A DNA stretch of 64,000 nucleotides from Tubulanus polymorphus (Eukaryota > Nemertea > Palaeonemertea > Tubulaniformes > Tubulanidae): the NCBI RefSeq assembly GCF_964204645.1, contig NC_134026.1:7254001-7318000 (forward strand), written 5' to 3'. Shown piece after piece: positions 4,036 through 59,447 of the stretch. Position 1 is the stretch's first letter; every line of letters starts with the position of its first letter. The translations under genes were made by a program, and so were the position numbers. The notes below the pieces were generated by a model that saw only the letters and a program-made list of their open reading frames with translations, did no database searches and was not told the DNA's origin.

Positions 4036-4809
4036 TTACACAAATATTTTAGCAATTTTACTTATAAAGATACATAAATTATAAAGTGTTCTGATGTTTT
4101 TTGTCTGCATAAGGGAGGAGAATTTATACTGGTTTGGATAAATTGAAAATTTTCTCTCAATGTACTTGGTCCTTAAAACGTCAAGGGTTGGACAACATAA
4201 TATATAATGATATTCGTCCCCTATAGCACTGTTGCAAAGAGGACAGGTCCTGTTTTCTCTGGGTACTTTCATCCATCTACCAGTTTCAATTGGAAGTTTG
4301 TGGTTACACGTTCTAAATCTACTTAAACTATATAGCAGGTCATCAGGAATGTCCGACGTGTAAATAAATTCCAGGCTATGATTATCTTTGAATAGAGAGT
4401 AATAGTCACCTTTAGGTGATTCCCTTATGGATGCTCTCCATTCTTGGAGGAACTGGTCCATTATTTTTCGTTTTAAAGTAGATTGCAGCCATCTAGTGTT
4501 TGGGAAGGATTGATCATCCCATATATTGTTTAAACCTACAGAATACAGAATATCTTTTACATTTCTAATCCATTTGAAATTTGGAGCTATGCCGTTAATG
4601 TAAAAAGGTCGCATAACTGATTTATACAGAATGCTAGAAAGTTTGTTCTGAGAACTAACTAAATTAGCCCAAAAGGAGACAATTCTAGATTTAATTACTA
4701 TAGAAAGGGGGAATCTACCAGTTTCTCCGTACAACATGAACGTTGGTGTACTATTTCGCGCTTTCAGTACGTGTCTCAGAAAACTTAAGTGAACAGACTC
4801 AACTGTCAC
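4036..4809 (-). mobile_element. Non-LTR retrotransposon (LINE), C-terminal ORF2 fragment
   Basis: An open frame of 257 codons matches the C-terminal part of LINE ORF2 proteins as found in marine invertebrates: the region after the reverse transcriptase. Seen directly: an opening VHLSFLRHVLKARNSTP block, then GETGRFPL followed by a hydrophobic W-containing stretch, an RFRTCNHKLPIETGRW block, and near the end a zinc-knuckle-like CPLC-(8 residues)-H-(3)-CC pattern followed by LDVLR. The frame opens with GTG, and an in-frame TAA lies just upstream. The reverse transcriptase and endonuclease domains are not present in this frame. It is therefore a 5'-truncated, dead copy, the usual outcome of LINE insertion. 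The clade (CR1/Rex-like or other) cannot be set from this part alone. Confidence 0.82.
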
Positions 4810-4954
4810 CTGTTAGGTTGTGTAATCATAATGTTATCTGACTACAGCCTGGAGATTATGGTCAGTATGAGACGGCAAACAAACCATCCACAGTCCAATC
4901 ATGCGCAATCTATAGATTGACCAAATAGGTTAGTTTTGGATGGTTCTGGTACAA

Positions 4955-35737: not shown

Positions 35738-36945
35738 TACATAATGAAACCACAGTCCGTTGACGACGACTTAAAGTAATAAACGATTTAGTGAATTCAG
35801 AAATATGTTACGTATTTCTTTACCGGTGATTATATACAAATAGAAATTCGTAGAATAATTCAGGACGATTAGATCCGTACAAATGGAGAAAGCTTTCGGG
35901 ATGTATCGCGATAAATTCGGAACGGACTGTAACGGAGCCAAAAGACAGACTGGAAGAGTCGTTATCAGAAAAAATATCGATACAGTTAAAAGAACACCAG
36001 TTACTTGTCGGGTCGATGACGAAAGTTTGTTCGATTCGAGTTGTTTTTGATTTCGTAACGTGAAAATGATGGTAAGACTTAACGTGGTTAAAAGTATCGT
36101 CGGTAGAAACGACATAAACAGCACGACAAGAACTGATTTAATACCGTGAAAATCTACCCGAACACAACCGATATTTCTGATATACACCAGATCGAAAATC
36201 ATAAAACTGAAAATCATGGCGAAAAAAGACGGAATTGATAAACATAAAAACGTGGATAGTTGTAAAGTCCAAATACGCGGCGCTCTAAACGGGTAACGTA
36301 TGATACACATGCGTTCTGTAGAAACGGCCACTAAAATCCACGGACTCGAAACTAACGCGATATGTGTGAAATAATCTAGTAACGTACACTGTAATTGTGA
36401 GGTGATATCGATGAGAATTACGTGGTAGAAATGGAAACAAATCGTATTGACGTATTTACAACAGAAATACGATAAGCCGATCGTATCGGAGAGGGCGAGC
36501 ACGACGAAAAAACGACTGTACGATAGTTTCCATAGTTTCGGTTTTAACATTACCCATACGATCAAAGAATTACCGACGAGTCCGAACAGAAAACACGATC
36601 CGATGAATACGAAGTAGAATATTTTATAGACGAAACCGGTCGGTTTTTGAGGGCTGAATACGATACCGATGTACAGGTTACTGAGACGTTGGTTAGTTGA
36701 ATTCATCTGAGGGGAGGGAAAAGTGTCAGAGCAGCAGTAGCAGCAGTAGCTGCAGTTCCAGCAGCAGCTAACAGCTCCACACCGGTCTCTAACAAACTGA
36801 TCTGCCAGATTGAGCTGTGATACATGCGTATTTCATACATCAAAGAAAGACATTTGGGAATCGCATATCCTTCCTCAAATAACTCGTTTAATATTAATTC
36901 AGCCTACTGGCTCATGGAAACTGCATTAAAATATCTAAATAGTTG
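35738..36945. repeat. Tandem segmental duplication, unit 1
   Basis: Homologous to 38198-39425, in direct orientation with a 2469-base offset. The left edge is at AATACATAATGAAA. The coding part and the first ~100 bases beyond the ATG are highly similar; the right side then decays with indels to about ATGGAAACTGCATTAAAA. Confidence 0.8.
35771..36706 (-). CDS. Class A (rhodopsin-like) GPCR, peptide-receptor type, copy 1
   Basis: A seven-transmembrane receptor of 311 residues in a single coding exon, expected in the plasma membrane and coupled to G proteins. Seen: TM1 with GNSLIVWV (GN at 45-46), TM2 LALSD (D74), C107 before TM3 and C181 in loop 2 (likely disulfide), ERM at 131-133 in place of DRY, TM6 with P252 but no CWxP tryptophan, and TM7 NYSTNFYLY (283-291), the form seen in many invertebrate peptide receptors instead of NPxxY. 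An N-glycosylation site lies at N2. The ATG directly follows a splice acceptor (TTTTCCCTCCCCTCAG), so a 5' UTR exon probably lies upstream. The gene is duplicated at 38240-39175 (301 of 311 residues identical). The ligand is unknown; the short length, ERM and missing tryptophan fit an expanded, divergent neuropeptide or chemosensory-like group. Confidence 0.9.
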   Translation of the reverse strand: MNSTNQRLSNLYIGIVFSPQKPTGFVYKIFYFVFIGSCFLFGLVGNSLIVWVMLKPKLWKLSYSRFFVVLALSDTIGLSYFCCKYVNTICFHFYHVILIDITSQLQCTLLDYFTHIALVSSPWILVAVSTERMCIIRYPFRAPRIWTLQLSTFLCLSIPSFFAMIFSFMIFDLVYIRNIGCVRVDFHGIKSVLVVLFMSFLPTILLTTLSLTIIFTLRNQKQLESNKLSSSTRQVTGVLLTVSIFFLITTLPVCLLAPLQSVPNLSRYIPKAFSICTDLIVLNYSTNFYLYIITGKEIRNIFLNSLNRLLL

Positions 36946-38197: not shown

Positions 38198-39425
38198 TGA
38201 AATACATTATGAAAACACAGTCCGTTGATGACGACAGAACTAAAGTAATAAACGTGTTAGTGAATTCAGAAATATGTTACGTATTTCTTTACCGGTGATT
38301 ATATACAAATAGAAATTCGTAGAATAATTCAGGACAATCAGATCCATACAAATGGAGAAAGCTTTCGGGATGTATTTCGATAAGTGCGGAACGGACTGTA
38401 ACGGAGCCAATAGGCAGGCTGGAAGAGTCGTTATTAGAAAAAATATCGATACAGTTAAAACAACACGAGTTACTTGTCGGGTCGATGACGAAAGTTTGTT
38501 CGATTCGAGTTGTTTTTGATTTCGTAACGTGAAAATGATGGTAAGACTTAACGTGGTTAAAAGTATCGTCGGTAGAAACGACATAAACAGCACGACAAGA
38601 ACTGATTTAATACCGTGAAAATCTACCCGAACACAACCGATATTTCTGATATACACCAGATCGAAAATCATATAACTGAAAATCACGGCGAAAAAAGACG
38701 GAATTGATAAACATAAAAACGTGGATAGTTGTAAAGTCCAAATACGCGGCGCTCTAAACGGGTAACGTATAATACACATGCGTTCTGTAGAAACGGCAAC
38801 TAAAATCCACGGACTCGAAACTAACGCGATATGTGTGAAATAATCTAGTAACGTACACTGTAATTGTGAGGTGATATCGATGAGAATTACGTGGTAGAAA
38901 TGGAAACAAATCGTATTGACGTATTTACAACAGAAATACGATAAGCCGATCGTATCGGAGAGGGCGAGCACGACGAAAAAACGACTGTACGATAGTTTCC
39001 ATAGTTTCGGTTTTAACATTACCCATACGATCAAAGAATTACCGACGAGTCCGAACAGAAAACACGATCCGATGAATACGAAGTAGAATATTTTATAGAC
39101 GAAACCGGTCGGTTTTTGAGGGCTGAGAACGATACCGATGTACAGGTTACTGAGACGTTGGTTAGTTGAATTCATCTGAGGGGAGGGAAAAGTGCCAGAG
39201 CAGCAGTAGCAGCGGTAGCTGCAGTTCCAGCAGCAGCTAACAGCTTCACACCAGACTCACAAACTGATCTGCCAGATTGAGCTTTGATATACCCGTATTT
39301 CATACATCAAACAGAATTGTATCCAAAGAAAGAATTCTTATTTGTTGAATCGCATTTCCTTCCACAAATAACTCCATTAATTCTATCCTTTGAACTGATG
39401 CGTGTAAACTGCATTAAAACGTTTT
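38198..39425. repeat. Tandem segmental duplication, unit 2
   Basis: Partner of 35738-36945. The 1.25 kb between the units (36946-38197) has no recognised gene; it holds a decayed MITE family A copy near 38020-38100. Confidence 0.8.
38240..39175 (-). CDS. Class A (rhodopsin-like) GPCR, peptide-receptor type, copy 2
   Basis: Tandem paralogue of the receptor at 35771-36706, with the same length, start, ERM motif, cysteines and TM7 motif. Compared with copy 1 it differs at F17L, M164V, F168Y, G237R, L239V, V253A, N264H, R267K, T277M and N307T. Nine of the ten lie after residue 160: TM4, the base and middle of TM6, the third extracellular loop and TM7. These are regions that shape ligand entry and G-protein contact. 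The G237R change adds a charge at the cytoplasmic end of TM6. The splice acceptor directly before the ATG is kept. Both copies are intact, so both are probably functional. Confidence 0.9.
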   Translation of the reverse strand: MNSTNQRLSNLYIGIVLSPQKPTGFVYKIFYFVFIGSCFLFGLVGNSLIVWVMLKPKLWKLSYSRFFVVLALSDTIGLSYFCCKYVNTICFHFYHVILIDITSQLQCTLLDYFTHIALVSSPWILVAVSTERMCIIRYPFRAPRIWTLQLSTFLCLSIPSFFAVIFSYMIFDLVYIRNIGCVRVDFHGIKSVLVVLFMSFLPTILLTTLSLTIIFTLRNQKQLESNKLSSSTRQVTRVVLTVSIFFLITTLPACLLAPLQSVPHLSKYIPKAFSICMDLIVLNYSTNFYLYIITGKEIRNIFLNSLTRLLL

Positions 39426-43275: not shown

Positions 43276-46200
43276 CTGGAAAACAATAGAATCACAAAAT
43301 TAGATTAGAAAAATACCTCGAATTTATTCAGACCGGAAAATGAAAATGCAACTTGCATGCAACTTATGATCAGATTGGGAAAGTTTGATGATGAATTTCA
43401 TGGCCCGGTTTTACAGTTTTCAGTTAAGTTAAGAGTCTCAAGTTGAAAAGTTGAAATAGTCATATGTATTTCATCTGTGAAACTCGATCAAAGGGTCGAA
43501 TAAAAAATTGATATCTTCAATACACATGTCAAATACAGAGTTTCAGAGTGCTTTTAAAAGTTGTTTATTTCTGGATTTCTCCAAATACTAAAAAATCGTC
43601 ATCAAACTTCATCCACGTATCGATACAATTCCAGCATAGAACAGAAATAAGAGACCCTCCCAGAAAGATGGCTGCCTCTATTGAATCCCCTTATGACATC
43701 ACTCGGTCATTTTCTGAATTTGGGATGAATTGAAACAAGTTAGGTCATTTCAGTGATGTCATAGAAGGATTTTTTTGTAGGTGGCCACCTGTTCGGTAAG
43801 GCCAAAAAATCCTCATACCACTGGATGTAGTTCGACAGTTCTGAGTTAGATTTTAAATCCACCTCAACATAGAATTCGAAAACTTTCAAATATAGTAAAT
43901 GAATAATTCAACCAAAGAGTTTAAGGTTTAAACACCGCACAACTGTTGAACTATTTCCAAAAAACTCATGCTCAACGTGAACTGAAAAAGTAACGTTTAT
44001 TTGAACAGAACTGGAGTTACAAGTATTCAGGGGCAAGTCTAGGTTAAGTGGAAGGCAGTGGTCCAGAAGAACGGAAAGGTTTTTTTATTCCTCGTAATGA
44101 AGACAGCAAATGGGTTCCCCCTCTTGTGCTAGAAATACATTTGAAGAGACGCAATATCTGAGAGGATGAGTGTGAAATTTGCAGCAGTTTTTTTACAATC
44201 TCTCTCTCTAGACAAATAGGGGGCAACCTCAATGAGACTGTAGGGGGGGTCCAGACCTCTGACATCGTGGCTGCTGAAGTAGCAAGGCTTTTGATCCCCC
44301 CAAAGATTCAGAAAATATAAGTTCAATTTTGGTATAATCTTTTTTTCACATTATATCAATATATTTCAATGCAATTACCAGCATTGCTAGAATATTGACA
44401 TCCATTCTGGTAAGGACAGCAGACATCTTATAAGGGGTGGCTGACTTGCAGAGGTGGAAATAAAATTGAAAGGAGTGAATGCCACCTAGATCAACCCCTG
44501 GTTATTACCGTAAATATGCTGACTTATTAGCAAGAAGTGCAATGGGTAATGAAGCAATTGCAGTGATAGGTTATATAAGCAAAATGATCAGTGATTGGTT
44601 TGTATCGTTGATGGAATTAATAAGCACCATATTGTATCTAGCCGGTTGTGGTTTTTTGCGAATTAAGTTGCAAAATGGAAGAAGCATTTCTTTCAGATCG
44701 TCCATATCAACCTATAGTAAATAATACATTCATAAACAACAAATCAACCAGTTTCAAACTATTCAAAATTCAAGCAATCCAAATGAGCAGCTTTTGACCA
44801 AGATCCTTAAAAAAGCTGTTAAACAATTAGATATTTCAAATCGTTTAATCTATCTATGAATACAGTTCCACTGATCCACAGTCATATAAGTGATAAGATT
44901 GTCAAACAGGTTGGACACTGATCTAGTACTGTTACTTCTATGATTCACTTCACTGTGAATCAGAAGAATTGTGGAACTGGGTTCTAAAGTTAATAATCAG
45001 CTAAAAGAAGCAAAGCTAATAATCTATACAATCAAACTCAGGTAAGTCATCAATTAGATAAGTCGTCACATTACTGAAGTCATCTCTGTTTTCGAGTACC
45101 AATATGCATTTATAATTCAATTAACTCAGTGTTTAAGTCGTCGACATAATATAATGATCATCATAACTACAACAGTTTGACTAATTCACAAAATGAGGAA
45201 AAACATTGTGTTGTTTTTATTTCATTTACCTTCAGTTGAAGCGTAACTTTCTTCAGTTCGTCCTCTCCATCAGTTGATAAATCATCATCGTAATACAAAC
45301 ACTCCGGGGCGCATTCCGTTTGAATTTCATACTGAAATCTATTGTAATATTTCCCCGGCAACAAGCTGTCTTGTATGTTCAATATCGTAATCGCTTTTTG
45401 CATAATCGCGTTTGCGTTGGCATTATCATACACCCTGGAAAATAGACGACAAATATTTGAATATTATAACATAGTAAAAATACGGAGCATCAAAAGTTAC
45501 ACAAAGTTAAAGTTCAACAAAAAGGGCCTCAATGTGTTAAGGTTTTTAAGACCCGCTGAGCACCACTCAGGGCATTATTAGTAGGTCTAATGTCCTCCCT
45601 GCAGCTCATCACAACCTCAATATTACGTACCTTTGAAATGTGTCCGACATCAAAGCTATGAATAGATTCAAACAAATGATAGCGGAAACAGCCAACCAGG
45701 TACCGACTAGAATATCAGTCATCAGTGAATCTACTAATTTCATATCCTACAAATTCAACGAAATCAACAAAATGTAGAGAACCGTGAAGATGAAACGTAT
45801 ATAATCCCGGCAAACTACGAACGAAAAGAGTCTGAAATGTTTCCTTCAGTTAATAGTTTATTCAATATCCTAATAGTCATCTTCAGGAATACTAAGTGTT
45901 ATATGTCAAATAAATAGCAGCTCATGGAAACATAGCGAAATCTTTATCATTCATATAATGTGCAGGGGTCTTATATTAGGAATATAGAAAGGATGCATGG
46001 GACATTTTCATCAAATATTGAATATATTCAAAAATTTTCTTGATGTAATTTGTCACATTTTCTCATCAAACGAAGCAGATTTTATAGAACTTTTACGTAC
46101 GTTATACTGATATTCATCGACTAACGTTAATCGAAACATCGTGAATAAAAGCGCATTGAAATTCTGGAAACCATCGACGACCATTGTTATGTTCTCACGC

Positions 46201-49200
46201 GGAGTTCCGATATCGACTTCTTTGGGATTTTCGCCTCCGAGAATCATCCAAAAAGCACAAACTGGAAAAAAATAGGAAAACCTTATCGTTATAGCCGGTC
46301 GTTACAGCGAACTTCGGGCACCAGAAAATCTATTTTTTCAATTCACTCACCGTAAGGAATGTAGAATACCAAATATAAGAATGCAAACTTCACAATATCA
46401 CCGAACATACTTCCTACTATTACGATGAAGGGACCTGAAAATAATACAAACAATTTAAAACTAGTCGATTCGGAAGTTTAAACCCGTGAAATCGGATCGA
46501 ATCAAGTAATTTCGTAGCTGGTTCTTCCAATTTACAGTTAGATATGCGCACTCAGGCACACGCTTATGACACAGTTCCTGATTGGCTGGCAATGTGAACA
46601 AATTCTGCTTCATTCTCAATGCACATTGGTCAATTTCGAGCAAAGGCTGACTATGTAACAGCTTCAGTGCTGACCTACGAGTATATTCGCAGGGGCAATA
46701 GGGGGCAGCACTGTATGAAGACAGTGGCAGTAATCGCGTTTAGTACTTACCTAATGATGAAAAGGCTCGAGCGTTTTTCATCAATCTCAACCACAACATT
46801 ATAATATTAACAGCGTTGATCCTATTGTGCCATAAAGCGAGGAGATGATTGTGGTTAGCAACGTCCACAAAATGAGTGACAAGCACGACGATAATCAGGA
46901 AATAACATAACCAATCAAATATATTCCTGTAACGTAGAGAAAAAAATAAGTTTGTCAGTTATGATATGATATGATTTATTTTCAAGTAAAATTTTTGGAA
47001 AAATTAATGAATAAGGAAATGCATTAAAGATGATGTAATAATATTAAATGAGGGACTGCTTTGAAGCAACATTTAGCTTATACAAGAAAGCAGCCCTAGA
47101 AAAGAGGAAAAAATATAGACAAGATGAAAATAAAGAGAAGAAAAACGACATAATACGGATATAATAACGACATACATATCCATACATATACATAACACAT
47201 ACACATACATATACACATACAACCATACTTCTATTCTAAGTTAAAATCGTCGGTTAAATTCGAAATTCAAATAGACTTAGATAAATGGAATAAAAACTCA
47301 ATATAAGCTATGAAAGTAGGAAACAAAAATAAGCAAGGATAAACTTGATTTTGTTCCAAATCTCAGTTGCTCGGGACAATCGCAGTGGTAAGAATTCGCC
47401 AGATTCGAGTCAAAATTCATATCTCAGTTCCAGAGTTGTCGCAAGTTTGACTAGGGTTTAAATTAGTTCATATTTTCGATGCTCTAACTTTGGAGTCAAA
47501 TTCTAGTGAGAACTGTGGAACTGGATCCTAAACATGAATTGCGGCTGTGTAGAGTTGTGAAGTTGATTCCCGGTGTTTTTGTGAATGAATGAAATTGCCA
47601 ATAGGCCCTAAAAATCATGGTCAAAATCTTACCAGAAATCGTTGAAATATTGCGGTTTTAATTTGTCCATATCTTCTTTCTCGAGATTTAGGAACATTTT
47701 CTCTTCGGGCCATTGTGGATGACAGTATTCCTCATCGCGCGCGATTTCTTTCAATCTCCAACGTTTCCATTTCTACAACAAATAAATTACAAACAAACCT
47801 GATATTCATTGTTTTGTGTGGAGGCTCCACAGTTCGTTTTACAGTTTTCAGTTAGAACTTGATTTTCAATTACGAACATTTGAAAAGACTTTGGAGTTTG
47901 ACTCCTTGGAGTTAAAAAAATGCAAATGAACTGATTCTAGCTCATAGAGGCAAATTGAACGTGTGGAACTCGATCCAGAATTGTGGAACTGTATCTTGGG
48001 TGTGGTTTGGAACATCATCTAGGGGTTTGGACCTGTGTCCTAGGATGTGGAACTGTATCCGCGGGTTCGGAACTGCGTCCTTGGATGTGGAAATGGATCC
48101 ATGTGAAGCCGACTATAAAGAACTTACCTCATGAGCTACTTTTGATTTCCTGATTTCTAGAATCTCCATTACAACCTGATGAAGTGTCATCAATGATGCA
48201 GTACACTGAAAATATCATTACAAAATATTGTCAGTATTCAATATTCTCCATATAGTGCCGAGTTAAATTTGACTGAAGGTAAAATGTGTTCATTTTGAAT
48301 CTGGAGTCAAATTCAAACCTAGGGATCGGTGGAACTAGATCCAGAAATAAGACCTCAAATTTCAATAATCAGATAGTAACGAATACTTACCAGAACTACA
48401 ACCCTCCAGGCGTCATATGGAAATTTATAAGTATGTTTTATTCTCCAATCTTCAATCGTAGCCAAACACGTCCATAGTATAATAAATACTAGATTATATA
48501 TCAGATTATACCAGGCTCCAAACCTACAAATAACCCAGCATAGATTTGTATATATTGAAACTTTATTCATATTTGTTACAGATTAGTGCGTTTTTCAATG
48601 AATTGTTTTCAGTATACATCAGAAAAAAACACGTAGATTCAATAACGTGATTGATGAAAACAATTAGTTAAATCAATATCAAAATGATCCAACTAGAAAG
48701 AACTCGTGTAAGTTGTCATCACATAATCATTACTCAAGCCATCTACAGTTTTGAGTTGTCATTTTGCTGATTTACCAATACATATGATCATCATAACTAT
48801 GACGAGTGATCCTAATCATTTACTCCAAGGATGACTTCAGCAAGGTTTATAGTGATTGTGTATTATCCACTGTACCACAGTGAAAGGAGAGTGACATGTA
48901 CAACAGTGAAAGAAGAGTGACATATACCACAGTGAAAGGAGAGTGACATGTACCTACTACAGTGAAAGGAGAGTGTATCATAAACAAACACGATCTCACG
49001 ACACTGAAAACAAACCTTCCAAACTGATTCCATTTTCGTTCTAAAAGTCTCACGAATACCGGGTGTAAAATGAGGTCATGTCGGCGTTTATTTACGCACA
49101 TTTTTAACTGTAAATTAAATATTGTGTTAGAGAAGTAAAGAAGGATTAGATGCTGATGATCACAGCCCAGGTTCCAAGAACAGAACCGCACAAACCAAAA

Positions 49201-52200
49201 CCCAGAGGCTAAATTTAATCAACAAAGTGTCAGTTATTAACCAAAGGCTACTGTCTCGATCATCCTCCCTCGGCAGGGATGTACATGCGAAACGGTGCTA
49301 ATCAGGCAGGGTTTCGCGTAGTGGCAGAGCATCGCGAGGCCATCAGCTTTCGATCCCCAACGAGCAAGGATGAACAGTCAGTCATGAGCAAAACTTGTTA
49401 TCAGTTAACTTAAGAACAAAGCATAAAACTGTCGACAAGAAAAGCTTCTCCATTTGATCAAAGTTAGATGAGTTGGGTTATAAAATCAGTGGTTATAGAG
49501 TATATAGAGCGGGTGGTTATTGTTGGGGGGTACATACTTGCCGAATTGACACCATTTACGATCAATTAATCTTTGAACTGAAGTGTGGGTGACAAGATCA
49601 AACTGTTTATGGGCAACTATTACTTCCAACTAAAATAACATTAACAGGAGAATAAAATATCAACTAGAAATAATAGAACTCGAAAATAATGAGCAAATTC
49701 TAATAATGAATTCTTGTCTTGTTCTTATCTATGAAAAGGTTGGTTCCCCTCAACCCGCTGAGCTCCACTCAAGGTAGCCCTCAACCCACTCATCAGCTCC
49801 CCTCAGGGCACCCTAAATCCTCTGAGCTCCACTCGGGGCACCCCTCAACCGACTCAGCTCCACTCAGGGCAACCCTCAACTCCACTCAGTGCACCCTCAC
49901 CCGCTGAGCACCACTCAGGGCTGCTTACAGTATTATTCTCAGCAGGTTTCTACGTTTTACTCACCGTTGTTTGTGAAGCATTGTCTTCTGAATTTCCAGT
50001 ATCAGCTACAAAATTAAACGAATATCAAACATAAGAGATTTTTAAATGAATGGTTTGAGATTTTGAAGAAATTGATATTAATTCTTGAAAGTAATGTGGA
50101 TGTTGTGGATGAAACGAGTGGAATGGGATTTTACTTACAGTTGATTTCGTGTTCTAGTTTATTAAGGAAGAAATACTGTTTTCTGTTTGCGCGGTCTGTG
50201 ATGTGAAACTGATCCAGAGCTTCTTTAGCCTTTAACATAAAACAATTACTAAATCATTTTAAAGAAATAAAACATTCCCTAAAAAGAAATTGTTTGTTAC
50301 TTAAAAATTTGATATATTCTTCCATTGATTAGAGGCGATTGACACTTTCTATCCGACCCCGATTGAAAATTTGGGCAGTACACAATTAAAGACAAGAGGT
50401 TTAAGTACAAGGCTGAGTCAAGAGCAGTTCATGGAAGGGTAGTCATAACAAAGCGCTGCTCTGAGAAGATAAGACACTGACGGTGTACGCATATTCCTAA
50501 AATCATGGTTTCAAGAAATAGAGAACGAAATATTCCTACCACTGGCGCCATCTTTGTAATCATCCAAACAATCGCTCGCTGGCCGGTAGAATCAACACCG
50601 TCAGCAGGAGCTCCCATTTCTAATAGTAACCTCGCTGTTTCACTACGATCTACAAAAATAAAATAATTCATACGTACATGTCCTAGCTCTACAGTTCTGG
50701 ATCCAGATCGACTTTTGAATCAAATCTTTTAAGCATTAAAACTGTGGAACTGGACCCATTAGTTACCGTTTGGGGTTTAAAAACCTACCTAATTCAGCGG
50801 CCACATGGACCGGCGTTCGGTTTTTGTAATCGACCACCTTTTTATATTCGCAATCGAGTTTGATTAACATCTTCAACGAATGACAAGCATCATTTCTAGC
50901 CGCAAAATGAACGGGAGTTTGATTTTCACCTTTCGTTCGAGCTTCTTTATTCGCTGTAAACAAAATATCAGAAATGTCCTCACGTTTCATCCGTAAATTG
51001 ATAACTGAAAACTTTAAACATTGAACTACCTACATAAAATGAACTAGATGAAATGAAGTTTATCTTGAATCTCAATTTGTCAAGGCCCGGTAACTAGATG
51101 ATAAACTCAGTGTGTTGGCAGGTCACATACGTATAATCAAAAGTAAGACTTTTTGAAATACCTGATAAATTAACTTAATCTGGTTCCACAATCGGGTTAG
51201 ATTTAAATCCGTTGAGTTAAAATCAGTTCATTTTCAATGTTTTAACTGTAGACTCAAATGTTAACCAAGAACTGGTAGAACTGGAAACAGGTTTTTCTAG
51301 AAATATCAGGACCCAGTTCGGTTATGTTTGATTTTAGTCAAATTTTATCTGCCGAACTGTGGAACCGGATCGTGAATAAATTGGGGAAGTGGATAGTGGA
51401 TTGAGATGCGAAATTATACATACCTCCATTTTCGATGAGGAATTTACACATTTCTGGGTAATCTACAGCAGCCGCGACGTGAAGAGGAGTTCGGTCGTAC
51501 GTATCACATATATTTACATCAGCTCCATTCTCTATCAGAAACTTAGCTACATCCGGGTGCCACGCCCGAGCTACCTGTAAAAATGCATCAATTGTGTAAT
51601 GTATGATCGTGTATAATCATGATGTAATAGTAACCATCACATCATCAATTCAGGACACAATAGCTATTACGTGTTATAGGGAGAAGCGTTAATCATCAAA
51701 GATCAAATAGGGTTTTTGATGATGTCATAGGGGGATGTATGGAGGCAACCATCTCTTCAGGAAGGGTTTTTGATGATGTCATAGGGGGATATATGGAAGC
51801 AACCATCTCTTCAGGAAGGGTCTATAGGTGACTAAGCAATTTGATGACATCATAGGGGGATCTCATGCAGTCATCTTTTCCACAACAGATAAATCCACTG
51901 ATTGACTGATGTCATAGGTGGATTGATGGATTAATAATGAGTGAGTGATGTCATAGGGGGATAGATGGAGTAATGAGTGATGTCATAGGTGGATCGATGG
52001 ATTAATAATGAGTGAGTGATGTCATAGCCAGGGGGATAGATGGGGTAATGAGCGATGTCATAGGTGGATTGATGGAGTAATGAGTGACTGATGTCATAGG
52101 GGGATAGATGGAGTAATGAACGATGTCATAGGGGGAATAGTCTCGATGTGCGTACCTCATGGAAGATAGTCTGTCCGTATTTATCACAACAATCGAGTCG

Positions 52201-55200
52201 CGCTCCGTTTCTGAACAACGAATAAACGAATTCTAAATCGAGTCGTTCGGTCATGTCGAACGTCGCTCCTAGACGAGCGAAATACTGCAACAATGTACGG
52301 TTACTAGCGACGATCATCTGGTGAGTCGTATCCTTGACGGACGGACTGAAATCATCCTCCAGTTCGCTGAGTCCGACTCCACCAGTGTTGGAACGGTTTA
52401 AACCTTTCTCTTCGACTAAAAGTAAAAACATTCGAAAATCATAATTCTGATGAGGGTTGGTCGGACAGTCAGCGTTAGTTTTGCTGGAATCATTTATATT
52501 AAGTTGTTTTAGATTTTTTTAATCATTAAAACGGATTTAAAAGCATTTATCAAAATATTCTACTGTACGTTACCGGTTTGAAATTTCTAACAAAGTTTGC
52601 TCAAATTTCGATAAAATCACAGCCAAACTTTCATCTAAATCTACTGATTTGAAACCGATGCTTTTTAGTTGGTCATTGATTTCAGAAACTGTCAAAATTC
52701 TACTGATTTCAAGGTAAATTATACGTGGGACTTGTGTTATTCAAACATATCGGTTGAATTGTTACATATCTAGACTATCAATTTGCATTAAGTTATCGAA
52801 TATAATACGTAGCTACATTTGATGACTAGGATTCATTCCAATAAATCTTTTCCGACTTTTCTCAAGTAAAACCGAGTTCGTTGGGCCCAGTTCCACGGTA
52901 CTAAGAATTTTACTCTGTTACTAACGACTATGAAACTGGGACCACGGTTGTCCATTCAACTTTACATTTTATTCACAATGAATTGAAATGCCATGAGTTG
53001 GAAGTTAAAAATCATGCCCCAGGTATTCGAATGAAAACCTTGTCATCAATATAGAGTCATTTCAGGGGTGAAATAGTGATATATATATATATATATATTT
53101 CATTAAAGAAGCACACAACACTCTGTATCTATACAGTTAGCAATACGCAGTGAAATTTAACTAAATTAATCAAAGCAGATTTTGATGATGATATCATTTC
53201 TTCCGGGAAGTGATGCGGAATACTTACGTTCAGTATCTTCAAAAAATGTGAAAAAATTAATGAAATAAATATACAAACAATAAGATTGAGAATATACATA
53301 GAGCATACCTCTTCTATCCCGATTAAGATGATTATAATCTGGTATTATAAATCATTATTTAAAAAAAAAAGACATTTAAAGCAAATTATAGATTAAATCA
53401 TTTATTAAAAGCCATGCAATCAATCATTTAGGCCCCAATAGCCGCAATAGATTAAACTCCTTCCCTTAATCATCAGGGTCCAGTTCCACAGTTCTGAGTT
53501 AAGATTTGACTCTGGGTTAAAACATTGAAAATGAACTAACTTTAACTCAGAGTTAACTCTAACTCACAACTGTGGAACTGGGACCTGCCAGTTATATAGT
53601 GGATGGTGTAATTTGACTTCATTTTCAATTTAGTCCGACTCTTCAGTCAATTCTGAACTCGCAACAGTGGAACTGGATCCTGAATTAATTATCAAGGTTT
53701 TGGGACGCAGAAAATCAAGTTTTTTATATATTCATATTGTGTATCATTGAAAGCTGGTGGTTGGTTTTATTTCTCCTACCAGTTAGAATACCCGGACCAA
53801 CACTTGAAATATAACCAGTTGGTTGAGATGATTTTAGGAAATCTAATCCTATTTCAACTAAAATAAAAACTTCTACAGTCAAGACGAGGTATATTTCATG
53901 GATACTAAAAGACAAAGTTCATTTCAATGCAGACAGTATAAACATCGGGGGCTGAAGAGCTTTAAAAATCTGCTAAACTGAATAAGAAGCACGTGATTCT
54001 ATAAACTAATTCAATTAAGAAACTACTGATTGATAGTCGTTCACATTTTCTCTAGTCAAACTAATGGTCCCAGCATTGTAAAAAGTTGGTTTAAGAGCCA
54101 AACCAGTGGATAACTGATATATACAGGACCCAGTTCCACAGATTAGAGCATGGTGGTATAAACTAGTTTATACACTCATGGTTGGAAAAAACATTAGTCG
54201 ACAAAATGGGTCACATTTTAATTCAGACCTGTGGAACTGGGTCCGGCTGATGGCCAACTTTAAACTTTTGGGCAACTGGTCCCCGGTGCAATTTCTAATA
54301 ATTTTCTTGCTATACATTTCTGTCTCGTTTTTTTGATAAGCATTAATAACCCAAACCCGTATACTACAACACAAACTCCTCCTCCACCAATTCGTTACTA
54401 AATGAAATTAGCCCTGAACTATGTACAGATGTTGGACTAAGTTTTTCTAATGCTAATTGAAGAAAAACAGACATATCAAAGCATTAAAATAAAACTAAAA
54501 GCATCAGACCTGTATTAAATGCACCCACAACACGCTAGGCCTATCACTTTTATATCAGGGATATTTCCTTTCATTTCACGTGAAAGCAAATTTCAATTAT
54601 GAATAAATCATTTTACCTTTTCGTTTGATGATACGTTTATTAGTCGCATACTCCATCCAACGCGAAGCGCCTTGTTTAACATTGCTGATCAAATTCAACG
54701 CATTTCTAGTTGGAAAATCGATCAAATTCAGTTTCCTGGAAAGCAAACAACTTAGAATCAGAACATCGAAAAAACCTGGGGCCGGTTGCTCAAAAGTTGG
54801 TTAAGAGTAACCAGTGGATAGTTGATGGTGACAATTGAAATTTCATTGTTACTATGGTATTTAACGGCCGGTTATCTTTAACCAACTTTTTAGCAACTGG
54901 CCCCTGGTTCCATTTTTTATTTGATGCACAAGCTTTCACTACTAATGTAGAAACCTGATGAAGCTGCTATACATCAGTAGCGAATAGAATAGTAAACCTA
55001 TATAATACTACTTGTCTCGTCGTATTTATTCTACACCCATTTAATGTACGGTTCCTCTACAAGGTTTAAACGGGTTAAGTTTGAATTCTCGTCCTCATTC
55101 AAATCCTGTAGTGACCATTAAGCAAATGAGCTGCAAATTTGAGACTATCTTTTATTGTGAAATTGCAGTATTAGAATCGATATCAAGATCTATCCAACCA

Positions 55201-55663
55201 GAGAAAAACAACTCAGGGTCCAGTTTCACGAAAAAGTTTAAGCCTAAAACGGTTAAGTTTGAATTGTTGTCCTCATTGAAAACATGAAGTAACCAATGGC
55301 AATTACACCAAAAATTTGAGTTTAACTTTTTCGTGAAACCGGCCCAGGTAACGATCTAAGTCAGTAACCAGTCTGGAATACGTGGTTTCCATGCGATTAT
55401 AGAAGTGCAAACCGCCAATAATGAAGTCACTGATAAATTTGAACCAGGACTGATTCTAACGCGGGTTAATAGTTAAAACCAGCCACACAGATTGCAAATG
55501 GAACTTACTTTTTATTATTGATTTTATCATCTGTATCTCCGCTGGCTGCTGGGATTTCTTTGACGTAAGCCGGGTTTTCATAGTGTAACGATTCATCCGT
55601 CGACATCGGTCCAACCCGATGTCTTTTATGTGACTTCTTCGGATGATCGGAAGAATGATTCAT
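41295..55663 (-). CDS. TRP cation channel, TRPA/pyrexia-like, 20 constitutive exons plus one alternative pair
   Basis: A tetrameric six-helix cation channel of the ankyrin-TRP group, in the plasma membrane, likely sensory. I joined these minus-strand exons by splice signals and phase: 55509-55667, 54617-54735, 52156-52415, 51424-51574, 50789-50953, 50540-50649, 50139-50229, 49965-50005, (49538-49629 or 49016-49107), 48391-48523, 48128-48205, 47633-47772, 46751-46926, 46351-46434, 46101-46261, 45631-45746, 45230-45434, 43204-43275, 42612-42801, 41624-41839, 41295-41464. The sum is 2925 bases, 974 residues plus stop, with every phase matching. Domains: acidic/basic N-tail (1-90), about five ankyrin repeats (135-320), linker (320-395), S1-S6 (396-690) with a pore LTLVDEYQYN, then a C-tail with a coiled coil (785-846) and a Pro/Ser/Ala-rich end. 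The start ATG lies 4 bases inside its exon, so a 5' UTR exon lies upstream. The subfamily is inferred from LDQFH-TDRANRKQYFFLN, the CHPQWPEE segment in S2-S3 and FRLTLVDEY. Confidence 0.88.
41965..42090 (-). repeat. Dispersed repeat family G, copy 3 (intronic, reverse)
   Basis: In reverse complement it shows the same phrase order as 17880-18000 (TACAGAT..., then TTTGCTCCCGGCAGGT, GGTGGGTTTGTAAGGGACA). Confidence 0.55.
42245..42415. mobile_element. MITE family A copy in TRP intron
   Basis: From GGTCCCACAGTTCTGAGTTT to CGAGAACTGTGGAACTGGA, with TGACTCTAGAGT and AAATGAACTAATTTCAACT in the middle. The 115-codon plus-strand open frame (42102-42449) that spans it is a repeat product. Confidence 0.6.
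45230..45434 (-). CDS. TRP gene: post-S6 exon
   Basis: It encodes RVYDNANANAIMQKAITILN, the helix continuing S6 in place of a classic TRP box, followed by a linker with two cysteines (TECAPECLYY) and an acidic run DDDLSTDGEDE. Enters in phase 2 and leaves in phase 0. Confidence 0.85.
45631..48523 (-). CDS. TRP gene: transmembrane exons S1-S6
   Basis: Seven exons (48391-48523, 48128-48205, 47633-47772, 46751-46926, 46351-46434, 46101-46261, 45631-45746). S1 is FGAWYNLIYNLVFIILWTCL. S2 starts DAWRVVVLCTASLMTLHQVV. A long charged S2-S3 loop contains CHPQWPEEKMFL. S3 is FDWLCYFLIIVVLVTHFVDV. S4 is INAVNIIMLWLRLMKNARAF, with only weak positive charge as usual for TRP. S5 starts at PFIVIVGSMFGDIVKFAF. 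The pore is FNALLFTMFRLTLVDEYQYN, with acidic D-E after the helix giving a cation-selective mouth. S6 is LVGTWLAVSAIICLNLFIAL, then MSDTFQR. Confidence 0.92.
47937..48110. repeat. Array of MITE family A terminal motif in TRP intron
   Basis: Copies of GGATGTGGAACTGTATCC-type units, six or seven of ~20-26 bases, diverged. They follow a family A body at about 47825-47990. Confidence 0.65.
48868..48978. repeat. Minisatellite next to alternative exon J
   Basis: Four copies of TACCACAGTGAAAGGAGAGTGACATG, about 26 bases, in the intron just downstream (in transcript sense) of exon 49016-49107. Purine-rich GAAAGGAGAG blocks resemble splicing enhancers, but the transcript carries the complementary strand. 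Confidence 0.85.
49016..49107 (-). CDS. TRP gene: alternative pre-S1 exon, version J
   Basis: 92 bases, phase 0 in and phase 2 out, with acceptor TTAATTTACAG and donor GTTTGT (weaker than version I's). It encodes LKMCVNKRRHDLILHPVFVR followed by LLERKWNQFGR. Version J is more basic in its first third (NKRRH against AHKQF) and has HPVFV where version I has HTSVQ. The 430-base intron between I and J contains a tRNA-like repeat (49255-49400). Confidence 0.88.
49255..49400 (+). mobile_element. tRNA-like SINE remnant between the alternative exons
   Basis: GCGTAGTGGCAGAGCATCGC (A-box-like) is followed about 18 bases later by CAGCTTTCGATCCCCAACGAG (B-box-like). No anticodon arm can be drawn, so it is not a working tRNA. 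It sits in the 430-base intron separating exons I and J. Confidence 0.45.
49538..49629 (-). CDS. TRP gene: alternative pre-S1 exon, version I
   Basis: 92 bases, phase 0 in and phase 2 out, with acceptor TTATTTTAG and donor GTATGT. It encodes LEVIVAHKQFDLVTHTSVQR followed by LIDRKWCQFGK, the helical segment joining the ankyrin part to S1. It is a homologue of 49016-49107: same length, same phases, 13 of 31 residues identical, including the RKW-QFG end. Using both exons would break the frame, so one or the other must be chosen. A CTGAGCTCCACTCAGGG minisatellite lies in the intron just upstream. Confidence 0.88.
49738..49925. repeat. Minisatellite upstream of alternative exon I
   Basis: Six to seven irregular copies of CTCAACCCGCTGAGCTCCAC followed by TCAGGGCACC, about 26-30 bases, within the intron between exons 49965-50005 and 49538-49629. 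CTGAGC-CACTCAG makes each unit partly self-complementary. Confidence 0.85.
49965..50229 (-). CDS. TRP gene: linker exons after the ankyrin repeats
   Basis: Exon 50139-50229 encodes AKEALDQFHITDRANRKQYF then FLNKLEHEIN, a segment typical of pyrexia-type TRPA linkers. Exon 49965-50005 (41 bases) encodes SDTGNSEDNASQTT, short and hydrophilic, ending in phase 0 where either of the two alternative exons can join. If it were skipped, the phase after 50139-50229 (1) would not fit the next exon. Confidence 0.8.
50540..52415 (-). CDS. TRP gene: ankyrin-repeat exons
   Basis: Four exons (52156-52415, 51424-51574, 50789-50953, 50540-50649) encode the ankyrin region. Clear repeat signatures are NGARLDCCDKYGQTIFHE, ENGADVNICDTYDRTPLHVA, the following MCKFLIENGANKEAR, GENQTPVHFAARNDACHSL, YKNRTPVHVAAELG and ARLLLEMGAPADGVDSTGQR. 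Exon borders fall near repeat borders. The last exon ends at ITKMAPV. Confidence 0.9.
51705..52142. repeat. Minisatellite GATGTCATAGGGGGAT in TRP intron
   Basis: More than ten copies of TGATGTCATAGGGGGATAGA then TGGAGTAATGAG..., of variable length 30-70 bases, fill most of the intron between 51574 and 52156. The end of the array is only about 14 bases from the donor of exon 52156-52415. Confidence 0.88.
53228..53236 (-). CDS. Candidate 9-nt cassette microexon of the TRP gene
   Basis: On the minus strand ATACTGAAC is bounded by a pyrimidine-rich acceptor (CACATTTTTTGAAG) and a full donor GTAAGTA. It lies between the exons at 54617-54735 (ending in phase 1) and 52156-52415 (starting in phase 1), so inclusion keeps the frame. 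It would change one junction codon and add three residues (V to D-T-E-L), just before the ankyrin region. Microexons of this size are known in neuronal genes of many animals; its use here is inference. Confidence 0.35.
53474..53587. mobile_element. MITE family A, best-preserved palindromic copy
   Basis: The left half CAGGGTCCAGTTCCACAGTT ... is nearly the reverse complement of the right half ... AACTGTGGAACTGGGACCTG. Internal blocks TTTGACTCTGGGTTAAAACA and TTTAACTCAGAGTTAACTCT also pair. About 114 bases in all, no coding frame. At least 15 recognisable relatives lie across the window, many in TRP introns. Confidence 0.8.
54775..54907. mobile_element. MITE family B (GGGGCCGGTTGCTCAAAAGTTGG)
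   Basis: The left end is CCTGGGGCCGGTTGCTCAAA; the right end in reverse complement is CCAGGGGCCAGTTGCTAAAA. Both continue into AGTTGGTTAA(G/A)GATAACC. About 133 bases, palindromic, intronic. Remnants lie near 29450-29530, 54085-54115 and 58430-58470. Confidence 0.75.
55216..55346. mobile_element. MITE family C (CCGGTTTCACGAAAAAGTT)
   Basis: The left end is GGGTCCAGTTTCACGAAAAA; the right end in reverse complement is TGGGCCGGTTTCACGAAAAA. Intronic, about 131 bases. A fragment lies at about 55065-55135 and a diverged copy near 30478-30580. Confidence 0.72.
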
Positions 55664-55667
55664 TTTC
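55509..55667 (-). CDS. TRP gene: first coding exon
   Basis: Acceptor TTTGTTGCAG, then GAAA and the ATG at 55661-55663. The donor is GTAAGT. It encodes a hydrophilic, His/Lys-rich N-terminus (MNHSSDHPKKSHKRHR...) with a possible YENPAYV motif near residue 28. The next exon, 54617-54735, encodes LIDFPTRNALNLISNVKQGA followed by RWMEYATNKRIIKRK. Confidence 0.75.
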
Positions 55668-57640
55668 CTGCAACAAAAACGAATTACTGAAAACGTAATA
55701 ATTTTGTGATGTTCATCTTTCAGCATGCTTTACAAACCCAGCACATAACAGCCATGGTACGGGGTCTATAAACCTCCCCAATCCAGGCTGTCGGTCACCT
55801 CTCCAAACACTAACCAGGCTCAATGTTGCTTAACCATAGGGATCGTGTGAGAACTCTCAGTGTTTACATGGTAAAGACAAATTGAGTGGATATGGAAAAC
55901 AACGGAATGATGATTTTGAAGTACGCCGCAGTCTCATCACAGGTGAGCAAAAGCTCTCAGCATCATTGATTAGAAATTCATCCATCCAATATTTCTGAAC
56001 ATCACTTTGCCTTTATTCATTTATTCCAGGTGCGTTGTTGGAAGCAATTTTTGATTGCTGCGGCCAAATGCCGATTTTGGACAGGTTCTAAATATTGCAG
56101 CGAATTTACTTAATTTCTTCAAAAATGTGGTATTCATAGAAAAAAAATGTCAATCAGCAAATTATTGCCGCGGATTTCGCCGCTGCATTTCCAACGCCAC
56201 TGTATTCACGTACGTGTCCCTTTTTCCAATAGGTCCATCACAAGGACCGCAATTCTCTTCACGTAGAAGGAATATCATTAAGACAAGTGGTGTGGATCTG
56301 GGACTGGGGAGGGTAAACTCCGACTCATCTGAGTCTGAGACTGTCTGAGTACTGTACCTGTACTGCTGTACTACTGTTGTTGTCTGTTGTGCCTCTCTCA
56401 GTCTCATCATCTCAGTCTCTATACATATTCATCATTTGACATCAAAATGAAATACAATTTACTCTATTAAACTATCAAAATATATCAATATAAATCACCT
56501 CAGTTCTGTGGATCAGTTTCGATGAAAGTATCCAATAATTTCATGTATATTTAGCCGATTTTAGTCGATATTTCAATCCTATCTCGTCTATGTGACCGCC
56601 ATATTGTTAGACTATTGATATGGAAACGGCTGTTAGGTGGCGGTAATGGATGGTATGTGCTGTTCGTGCGGGTTCCTACCCGTCCAGACGCGCCCGTTTT
56701 GACCACTTCTTCGTAATTAAATATCTAATTAACAAATCTATCTAGGCCTATTAGTATCCACTTTGAGTTTCATCAAGAACCTTAGTGTATGATCTAACAC
56801 AGGATCAGAGGGACAGATCACACAGTGGAGACCGGTCGAGAGCCCGGCCGGTTGGTTCCGGGCCTCAATAACTACTTTTAACTGATCTCGATGTAGAGCA
56901 ATGATTGGAGAATTAAACACCGAGATTGCGCTCCAAACTCCATCTCCCCGGCTGAAGATTTTTCTTCTAGCTCGTTTAGCTCTGGGTAGCACCCAAGTTG
57001 TAAGATAAAGAAAAAAGGACTATAGTGTGTATTGCGATATCGCATCCAGGTCTAGATGTGTAGATAGTTGTGAATAATTTTATGAAACGAATGTACCGGT
57101 AATGATGAATGATATCTATAAATGAAAAGATATTGATTTTCTTGCTATTCCAAATCTTTAAAACCTCTCCACAGGGCGGCCCCCTCGTGGACTTAAGCGG
57201 GTTGTCGTAGTTTTAAATTCAAAAAGCTATCTCTTTTACTATGCCATGGTACGGTACCATCTAATCGTGTCTACCAAATGAATGTACCACCAGACTGGAC
57301 ACAGGCGGAGGGGCTACTCGGCCGCTGCTCGCTGTGTCTCACGCTGTCGCGTCCAAGTATAGTGCGTTTCGCGGCGAACCCGCTTTCCGCTAGTATCCCC
57401 TGCGAATAATTTCATTGTCAGGGACCCCGATGACCGATAGCCGAAACCTGCAAGATGGACCCGGTGCACCATGGTAAACGAGTAATAGGGTCAAACATGA
57501 GCATTTAATCGTATGAGAGCGAACCGGCAGAAAGATCCAAACCGAGTGGAGAATGACGGGAACGGACATTACAGGTCCTGGTCGATTCGAACTTCAACTG
57601 CACCACATTGGGCCATAATGGCAAAAAATAATCAAAGTCA
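55668..57640. other. Region 5' of the TRP gene: intron/5' UTR/promoter and spacer
   Basis: The TRP 5' UTR exon and promoter should lie here but I cannot place them. Positions 55990-56235 hold a partly inverted repeat (GCGTTGTTGGAAGCAATTTT ... GCATTTCCAACGCCA) with GCTGCGGC/GCCGCGG blocks. GACCGCCATATTG at about 56588 resembles a YY1-type element. No other coding exon is seen. Confidence 0.4.
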
Positions 57641-58553: not shown

Positions 58554-59447
58554 CTATTTATCATCATTTTTCTGTCGGGCAGGTGCTTGCTGCTGCTGCG
58601 GTCCAGTGTATTTCCTCGAGTACATCGTTATTTTAGTTTCGCCCACGTTGTGCTTCCTTCTAATCGAATCTAACGTTTGAGCTTGTTTATAATACTGTAG
58701 GAAATTCACTGTAATCACGGGCACGGCGAGAGCGCTCAGGAGCACCCCGGTTATGGCGCAGATACCGCCTACTATATGCCCTAACGTGCCGGTCGGTACG
58801 ATATCCCCGTAACCAATTTTCGTCATGGTAGTTACCGCCCACCACATTCCGGTCGGGATATCTTTGAAACTATCTTCGCCTATTTCCGTCATGAATATCA
58901 AAGCTCCGTAGATCAAACAGAAAGTACCCAGCACCAAACACAACAGAAGAAGCTCGCCGGCGCTTTTCTTCAAAGTTAATATCAACACTTTCAGACCGCG
59001 GTATTGTTTAACGAGTTTGAATATTCTGAATATGCGCAATACTTGCAGCAGTCTGACGACCACCATCGAACTGTAGATACCGATGTGGGAGTAGTTCTCG
59101 CCGAAGCGACCTCTGAAGTGAAATATAATCACCGACACCCAATACGCCGATATTATGCACAGATCAATCAGATTCATCCACGACGCGAAGAAAAGCCGAA
59201 TTTTCGGCGACATAATGAGGCGAAATAGGTACTCGAGAAAGAATATACCCATCAGCACGTACTCGGTGGCTAATAGCGAAAAATGTGGTTCGGTTTGGCC
59301 GAGGAAGATTTGTTGGGCGTGGTTCGTACCGTTTTTGAAAGTGACGAACGACGGCGGAACGACAGGTCTCCGCATCGACGGAATCGTCTCCATAAATATC
59401 AGAATTATTGATAGTATCGTGAGCAAGGCGAACGTCACGGCCCATAC
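58554..59447 (-). CDS. Voltage-gated K+ channel alpha subunit, Shaw/Kv3-like, last exon (S1 to C-terminus)
   Basis: Six-helix potassium channel subunit. The exon opens at acceptor CTATTTGTAG in phase 0 with VWAVTFALLTILSIILIFME (S1), then an S1-S2 loop with an NGT glycosylation site. S2 contains EYVLMGIFFLEYLFRLIMSP and S3 WMNLIDLCIISAYWVSVII. S4 is VRLLQVLRIFRIFKLVKQYR (R, Q, R, R, K, K at every third place). S5 follows, then pore WWAVTTMTKIGYGDIVP, S6 GVLLSALAVPVITVNFLQYY, and a short tail with QQQQ ending QKNDDK and a stop. The residue before IGYG is lysine (codon AAA at 58818-58820) where Kv channels have threonine, and the S6 PVP is AVP (GCC at 58725-58727). The cytoplasmic T1 tetramerisation domain must be encoded by upstream exons, which I do not find up to 64000. 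Kv family certain; Shaw/Kv3 placement inferred from the S4-S6 pattern. Confidence 0.9.
   Translation of the reverse strand, partial: VWAVTFALLTILSIILIFMETIPSMRRPVVPPSFVTFKNGTNHAQQIFLGQTEPHFSLLATEYVLMGIFFLEYLFRLIMSPKIRLFFASWMNLIDLCIISAYWVSVIIFHFRGRFGENYSHIGIYSSMVVVRLLQVLRIFRIFKLVKQYRGLKVLILTLKKSAGELLLLCLVLGTFCLIYGALIFMTEIGEDSFKDIPTGMWWAVTTMTKIGYGDIVPTGTLGHIVGGICAITGVLLSALAVPVITVNFLQYYKQAQTLDSIRRKHNVGETKITMYSRKYTGPQQQQAPARQKNDDK

Follow-up and report, generated by a model that had tools for sequence, protein, structure and literature searches.

The closest described system is found in insects. The fly TrpA1 gene has two mutually exclusive exons, exon10a and exon10b, between the ankyrin repeats and the membrane region. 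Isoforms that differ in these exons, or in the mosquito exon6a and exon6b (the "BAT" region), differ in their response to electrophiles, and a role in heat had been proposed earlier (PMC11471635). There are also descriptions of mutually exclusive TRP exons that alter N termini (PMC7143563, PMC6137742). Described here is a pair of exons from the nemertean Tubulanus polymorphus, in a stretch of 64,000 nucleotides (nt) from contig NC_134026.1, positions 7,254,001 to 7,318,000. This whole stretch is called the window, and coordinates refer to it unless another locus is named. The pair lies in a TRP channel gene on the minus strand and is similar to the insect pair by position, in that two exons, predicted from the sequence to be mutually exclusive, encode a short segment between the ankyrin repeats and the membrane. 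A preliminary description of the locus had drawn the analogy to the alternative exons of Drosophila TrpA1, and in this respect the analogy is apt. Unlike the insect gene, however, the channel belongs by its fingerprint residues to TRPVL (vanilloid-like) and not to TRPA. We assign a probability of about 0.8 to the reading that an old tandem duplication of the pre-S1 exon in this TRPVL gene produced the versions A and B, of which one at a time is spliced in, with an effect on the coupling of gating.

Exons of the gene were placed by splice sites and reading frame. The coding model (55663-44571, minus strand) has 19 exons when both A and B are counted and 18 in each isoform, which translates into 805 amino acids (aa) comprising ankyrin repeats, the pre-S1 segment and a six-helix pore of TRPVL type. 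All introns are GT-AG; the model is least certain at its start codon and in its first two exons. The upstream alternative, exon A, is at 49629-49538 and the downstream alternative, exon B, at 49107-49016, with a 430-nt intron between them (49537-49108). Each is 92 bases long, is entered in phase 0 and left in phase 2, and is flanked by AG/GT borders. Either one joins the common exon 8 (50005-49965, 41 bases) to the common downstream exon that encodes S1 (48523-48391), these two exons being placed by splice sites and frame. Placement of A rests in addition on homology to B and to an exon of a paralogue, and that of B on homology to A and on an alignment to the pre-S1 region of TRPV1.

The peptide encoded by exon A is LEVIVAHKQFDLVTHTSVQRLIDRKWCQFG-K and that encoded by exon B is LKMCVNKRRHDLILHPVFVRLLERKWNQFG-R. 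Identity is found at 13 of the 30 residues with whole codons, the split 31st residue being K in A and R in B, and the shared core reads DL..H....RL..RKW.QFG. Inclusion of A alone or of B alone gives a stop-free frame of 805 aa, whereas inclusion of both through their ordinary splice sites leads to a first stop after 395 residues and omission of both to a first stop after 369 residues. Thus A and B lie next to each other, are homologous and agree in length and phase, and the frame set by the ordinary sites allows exactly one of them; these are the features of mutually exclusive tandem exon duplications in general. The preliminary description had given the coordinates, the 92-base lengths, the phases and an identity of 13 in 31, and had stated that exactly one exon is needed for a correct frame, all of which is borne out here.

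The similarity between the two exons exceeds chance: none of 100,000 shuffles of the B residues reached 13 or more identities with A. A genome-wide protein search with the exon A peptide returned two matches only: exon B, with an E value of 0.28 for the genome, and exon A itself (8.4e-15). In a comparison of each of the 19 exons of the gene with its 2-kb flanks on both sides, A and B gave a mutual score of 70, and the other 17 exons scored 22-50, the top three of these (43, 50 and 50) being ankyrin exons that match one another. By codon position, A and B are identical at 14, 21 and 8 of 30 first, second and third positions, and the difference between the second and the third is significant (Fisher p 0.0017). 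The proportion of synonymous differences (pS) is 0.95, i.e., saturated, and that of nonsynonymous differences (pN) is 0.41. Neutral decay was also simulated from B. At 0.5 substitutions per site 7.4% of the runs stayed free of stops and retained at least 13 of the 30 residues, at 1.0 this dropped to 0.03%, and at 1.5, 2 and 3 no run in 20,000 did so. A stop-free frame of 30 codons persists in 22-25% of neutral runs and is by itself weak evidence. Saturation at synonymous but not at nonsynonymous sites, together with the simulation, indicates that both copies have long been kept as protein-coding sequence. As far as sequence comparison can tell, the two exons arose by an old duplication and have been maintained by selection at the protein level.

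A search of the genome with the membrane part of the channel found one close relative, the TRPVL paralogue L004 (G000:C2:7550001-7560000). It is on the same contig and on the opposite strand, and the two coding regions are about 242 kb apart. No third TRPVL gene was evident in genome searches with the membrane part of either gene, which could miss divergent ones. Exons of the two genes correspond one to one: the lengths of 17 of the 17 compared differ by multiples of 3, and eight of these are equal. The S5-pore exon of the paralogue is longer (221 vs 161 bases), and the C-terminal end of its predicted protein was not located in the model. The pre-S1 segment of the paralogue is encoded by one exon only, P (L004:5482-5573), also of 92 bases with phases 0 and 2. 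A second copy is absent from L004:3401-7600 in searches with A, B and P, the three best scores each being 24-27.

P shares 13 of 30 residues with A, as many as A does with B, and is further from B (9 of 30). The values of pS and pN are 0.85 and 0.40 for A and P, and 0.77 and 0.54 for B and P. Third positions are identical at a proportion of 0.26-0.43 between the two genes in six exons of equal length. This similar degree of saturation suggests that the two duplications, that of the exon and that of the gene, may be similarly old. In a test of the three possible topologies with 31 columns, the approximately unbiased (AU) test gave 0.785 for the tree that joins A with P, 0.289 for A with B and 0.097 for B with P, and none is rejected; the RELL (resampling of estimated log-likelihoods) bootstrap alone excludes the tree joining B with P (0.043). 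It is conceivable, though rather doubtful, that the exon duplication predates the split from the paralogue, which would then have lost one copy, the best tree joining A with P though not significantly.

Pfam matches in the 805-aa protein are Ank_2 (1.3e-25) and Ion_trans (1.2e-15). For assignment to a family, 12 TRP fingerprint positions were taken from PMC9242649, read off structure alignments and counted by hand; as a check of the numbering, TRPV1 was read in the same way at the nine membrane positions, and its letters there are those of the published TRPV row. The channel displays W A N G Y F W N F I A A at these positions. The published row for TRPVL, which was sampled there from cnidarians and annelids, is W - N G aromatic F W N F I A A (PMC9242649). 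The fit is 11 of 11 specified positions for TRPVL, 7 of 12 for TRPV and 5 of 12 for TRPA1, and the G and R of the TRPA1 fingerprint in S6 and the TRP helix are replaced by A and A. The channel thus resembles the TRPVL subfamily in its fingerprint residues, and it does so also in its N-terminal ankyrin repeats. In S6 and the TRP helix the paralogue has the same W, N, F, I, A and A, but at the S1 position it has H and not N.

Compared with solved structures, the membrane part alone matches TRPV1 and Nanchung best (about 1e-10). A three-sequence profile of the membrane part (A form, B form and paralogue) gave "Osm-9-like TRP channel 1" (2.4e-15), which we take to be another name of TRPV1, and TRPV1 (2.9e-14). 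TRPA1 does not appear among the best 60 of 188 matches of the membrane part or the best 60 of 211 matches of the profile. The ankyrin array of TRPA channels has about 16 repeats of 33 residues. In the model 364 residues precede the pre-S1 exon, with the best Pfam ankyrin stretches within residues 151-246; thus there are too few residues for 16 repeats, an argument that would be weaker if an upstream exon went unfound. With a TRPA1 fingerprint of 5 of 12 and a membrane part nearest to TRPV1 and Nanchung, an assignment to TRPA was rejected, and the "TRPA-like" label of the preliminary description is not supported. We conclude from these comparisons that the gene probably encodes a TRPVL channel.

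The same genome has a TRPA gene (L005). Its pre-S1 exon is 185 bases long and has different boundaries, and a search of 1.5 kb on either side did not reveal a second copy (the best match, score 36, is to another part of the gene). Given the different family and this single, differing exon, a common origin of the nemertean and insect pairs looks unlikely. To our knowledge no alternative exons have been described at the pre-S1 segment of TRPV1. Among the papers listed in the literature searches, outside of which most subscription papers lay, no mutually exclusive pre-S1 pair was found in a TRPVL gene.

Residues 7-31 of exon B align without gaps to residues 407-431 of TRPV1, including the RHD and KW motifs. 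Thus the pair recodes the pre-S1 segment, and the placement of the duplicated exons at the ankyrin-to-membrane junction, directly before S1, agrees with that proposed earlier. B is similar to the TRPV1 pre-S1, or membrane-proximal, domain in carrying RHD at the positions of R409-H410-D411; A differs in that it displays QFD there and is without the RH pair. The two versions differ also in net charge (K and R minus D and E), which is +2 in A, +6 in B and +5 in P, and -1, +3 and +1, respectively, in the first 13 residues. In TRPC6, R437 and K442 of the pre-S1 region control the affinity for phosphatidylinositol 4,5-bisphosphate (PMC9232555), and the membrane-proximal domain of TRPV1 and TRPV2 binds phosphatidic acid in vitro (PMC6387362). 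R409 and H410 of TRPV1 are listed as contacts of phosphatidylinositol and are then described as solvent-exposed without direct contact (PMC8095115). With this mixed picture, a switch in lipid sensitivity stays a hypothesis and not a result. The hypothesis, which comes from the higher basicity of B, is that the likeliest functional difference between A and B would be sensitivity to phosphoinositides or other acidic lipids.

The sequence of events proposed is as follows. An old tandem duplication of the pre-S1 exon would have given rise to versions A and B, each of which would be used in some mRNA, one at a time. Mis-spliced messages, with both exons or with neither, would be shifted in frame and would be degraded or give truncated products. 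The choice between A and B would alter how the ankyrin domain and the membrane lipids are coupled to the gate. One gene would in this way probably make two channels.

Several observations speak against parts of this proposal and should be considered together. Two of them concern the family assignment. With the whole protein, ankyrin proteins are the top matches among solved structures; NOMPC (5.3e-55) ranks above fly TRPA1 (E 6.2e-31), whose match spans residues 168-416 and consists mainly of ankyrin repeats. When the search is confined to the pre-S1/S1 stretch, fly TRPA1 is closest (E 3.4e-4), with TRPV1 second (0.018). As for the lipid hypothesis, P has S-Y at the positions of TRPV1 R409 and H410, i.e., neither R nor H, though it is basic overall; thus the RH pair is not a general feature of TRPVL. 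Splice signals were scored with a matrix of 32 donors and 31 acceptors from both genes, from which A, B and P were left out and by which they are hence disadvantaged. The donor of exon B, AAG/GTTTGT, scores below all 32 comparison donors, and that of exon A is weaker than 28 of the 32. The acceptor of exon A is below all 31 comparison acceptors and that of exon B is weaker than 29 of them. It should be noted that the acceptor of P is likewise below all 31, though P is the sole pre-S1 exon of its gene. Given the weak B donor and the weak A acceptor, one of the exons could be rarely used. Finally, pairing between the flanking introns does not exceed that of shuffled sequences (28, 44 and 59 of 60 shuffles were as good or better) by a whole-intron method that is blunt. 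Thus no mechanism that would enforce exclusivity was identified, and on this one test the locus is unlike some mutually exclusive tandem duplications, which have competing RNA structures in their flanking introns. An intron of 430 nt is too long for steric exclusion. A known enforcing mechanism is not required for mutually exclusive exons, as frame and regulators can suffice.

The weak splice sites of both exons, above all the B donor, the weakest of all compared, would suit a locus with a single functional pre-S1 exon. Its partner would then be a relic, or else a poison exon, seldom included and under regulation, that lowers channel output and makes no second channel; any wrong combination of the ordinary sites does shift the frame. 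However, once synonymous sites have reached saturation a relic is expected to have lost its frame or residues, and both exons keep 30 codons, the core motif and the AG/GT borders; a poison exon has no need of a conserved protein sequence. We consider this explanation unlikely. Exon B could also be an alternative first exon, from which an ankyrin-less channel starts while A serves the full-length form. B does have an ATG at codon 3 in frame with the channel, and upstream of B this frame continues without a stop for about 37 codons (open reading frame 49218-48847). A first exon would nevertheless need neither the AG acceptor that B displays at the position homologous to that of A and P nor the same phase, and the lack of an in-frame ATG in exon A is counted on the same side; this use of B is more improbable still.

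Joint inclusion of A and B in frame through other junctions has the least to commend it and is very improbable. A scan of GT donors 60-299 nt past the start of A, and of AG acceptors in an interval that opens 150 nt ahead of the start of B and closes 60 nt beyond it, did find five in-frame junctions. The highest-scoring one cuts A at 49560 (donor 6.3) and continues from 49208 (acceptor 6.8), which adds intron-coded sequence. Its combined score of 13.1 is lower than the 15.0 of the A donor with the B acceptor, and the other four junctions reach at most 7.5. It also removes the conserved KW..FG end of A, and through the ordinary sites the two exons together meet the stop after residue 395 described above.

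Among the introns of the gene, two sequences near the pair can be mentioned. A 26-nt tandem repeat of 3.9 copies (48871-48975) is found about 40-145 nt past the exon B donor. It is pyrimidine-rich on the transcript and might be a regulatory or splicing element. In the A-B intron, a stretch of about 60-95 nt within 49200-49420 recurs elsewhere in the genome, with six other matches at 73-85% identity, and is thus probably a dispersed repeat. No known RNA families were matched at the gathering score in 44000-56500. The intron that separates exon 3 from exon 4 contains further tandem repeats, at 51899-52136 (unit of 71, or 32, nt) and at 51709-51821 (unit of 54 nt), which have the core TGATGTCATAGG in common.

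Elsewhere in the window, just upstream of the TRPVL gene, there is a large exon of a voltage-gated potassium channel (58554-59447, minus strand) with a TKIGYGD filter and a Pfam Ion_trans match. Two tandem and nearly identical frames of 353 and 338 aa, at 35771-36832 and 38240-39256 on the minus strand, have 323 identical residues; by reading they are putative seven-helix-receptor-like sequences, no family search having been made. A 258-aa open frame at 4036-4812 (minus strand) resembles, again by reading and with no search made, part of a retroelement protein and is putative as well.

It is a tentative and rather doubtful suggestion that a second, independent TRP family has evolved an either-or pre-S1 exon, by which the basic, lipid-facing surface encoded by B would be swapped for the nearly neutral one encoded by A. 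If both forms are made, the locus would amount to an experiment of nature in which the pre-S1 segment of a TRPVL channel is exchanged, a segment thought to relay signals from the ankyrin domain and from membrane lipids to the gate. If such a pair recurs in TRPVL as well as in insect TRPA1, the transition from ankyrin repeats to membrane would stand out as a preferred site for the evolutionary tuning of TRP gating by splicing.

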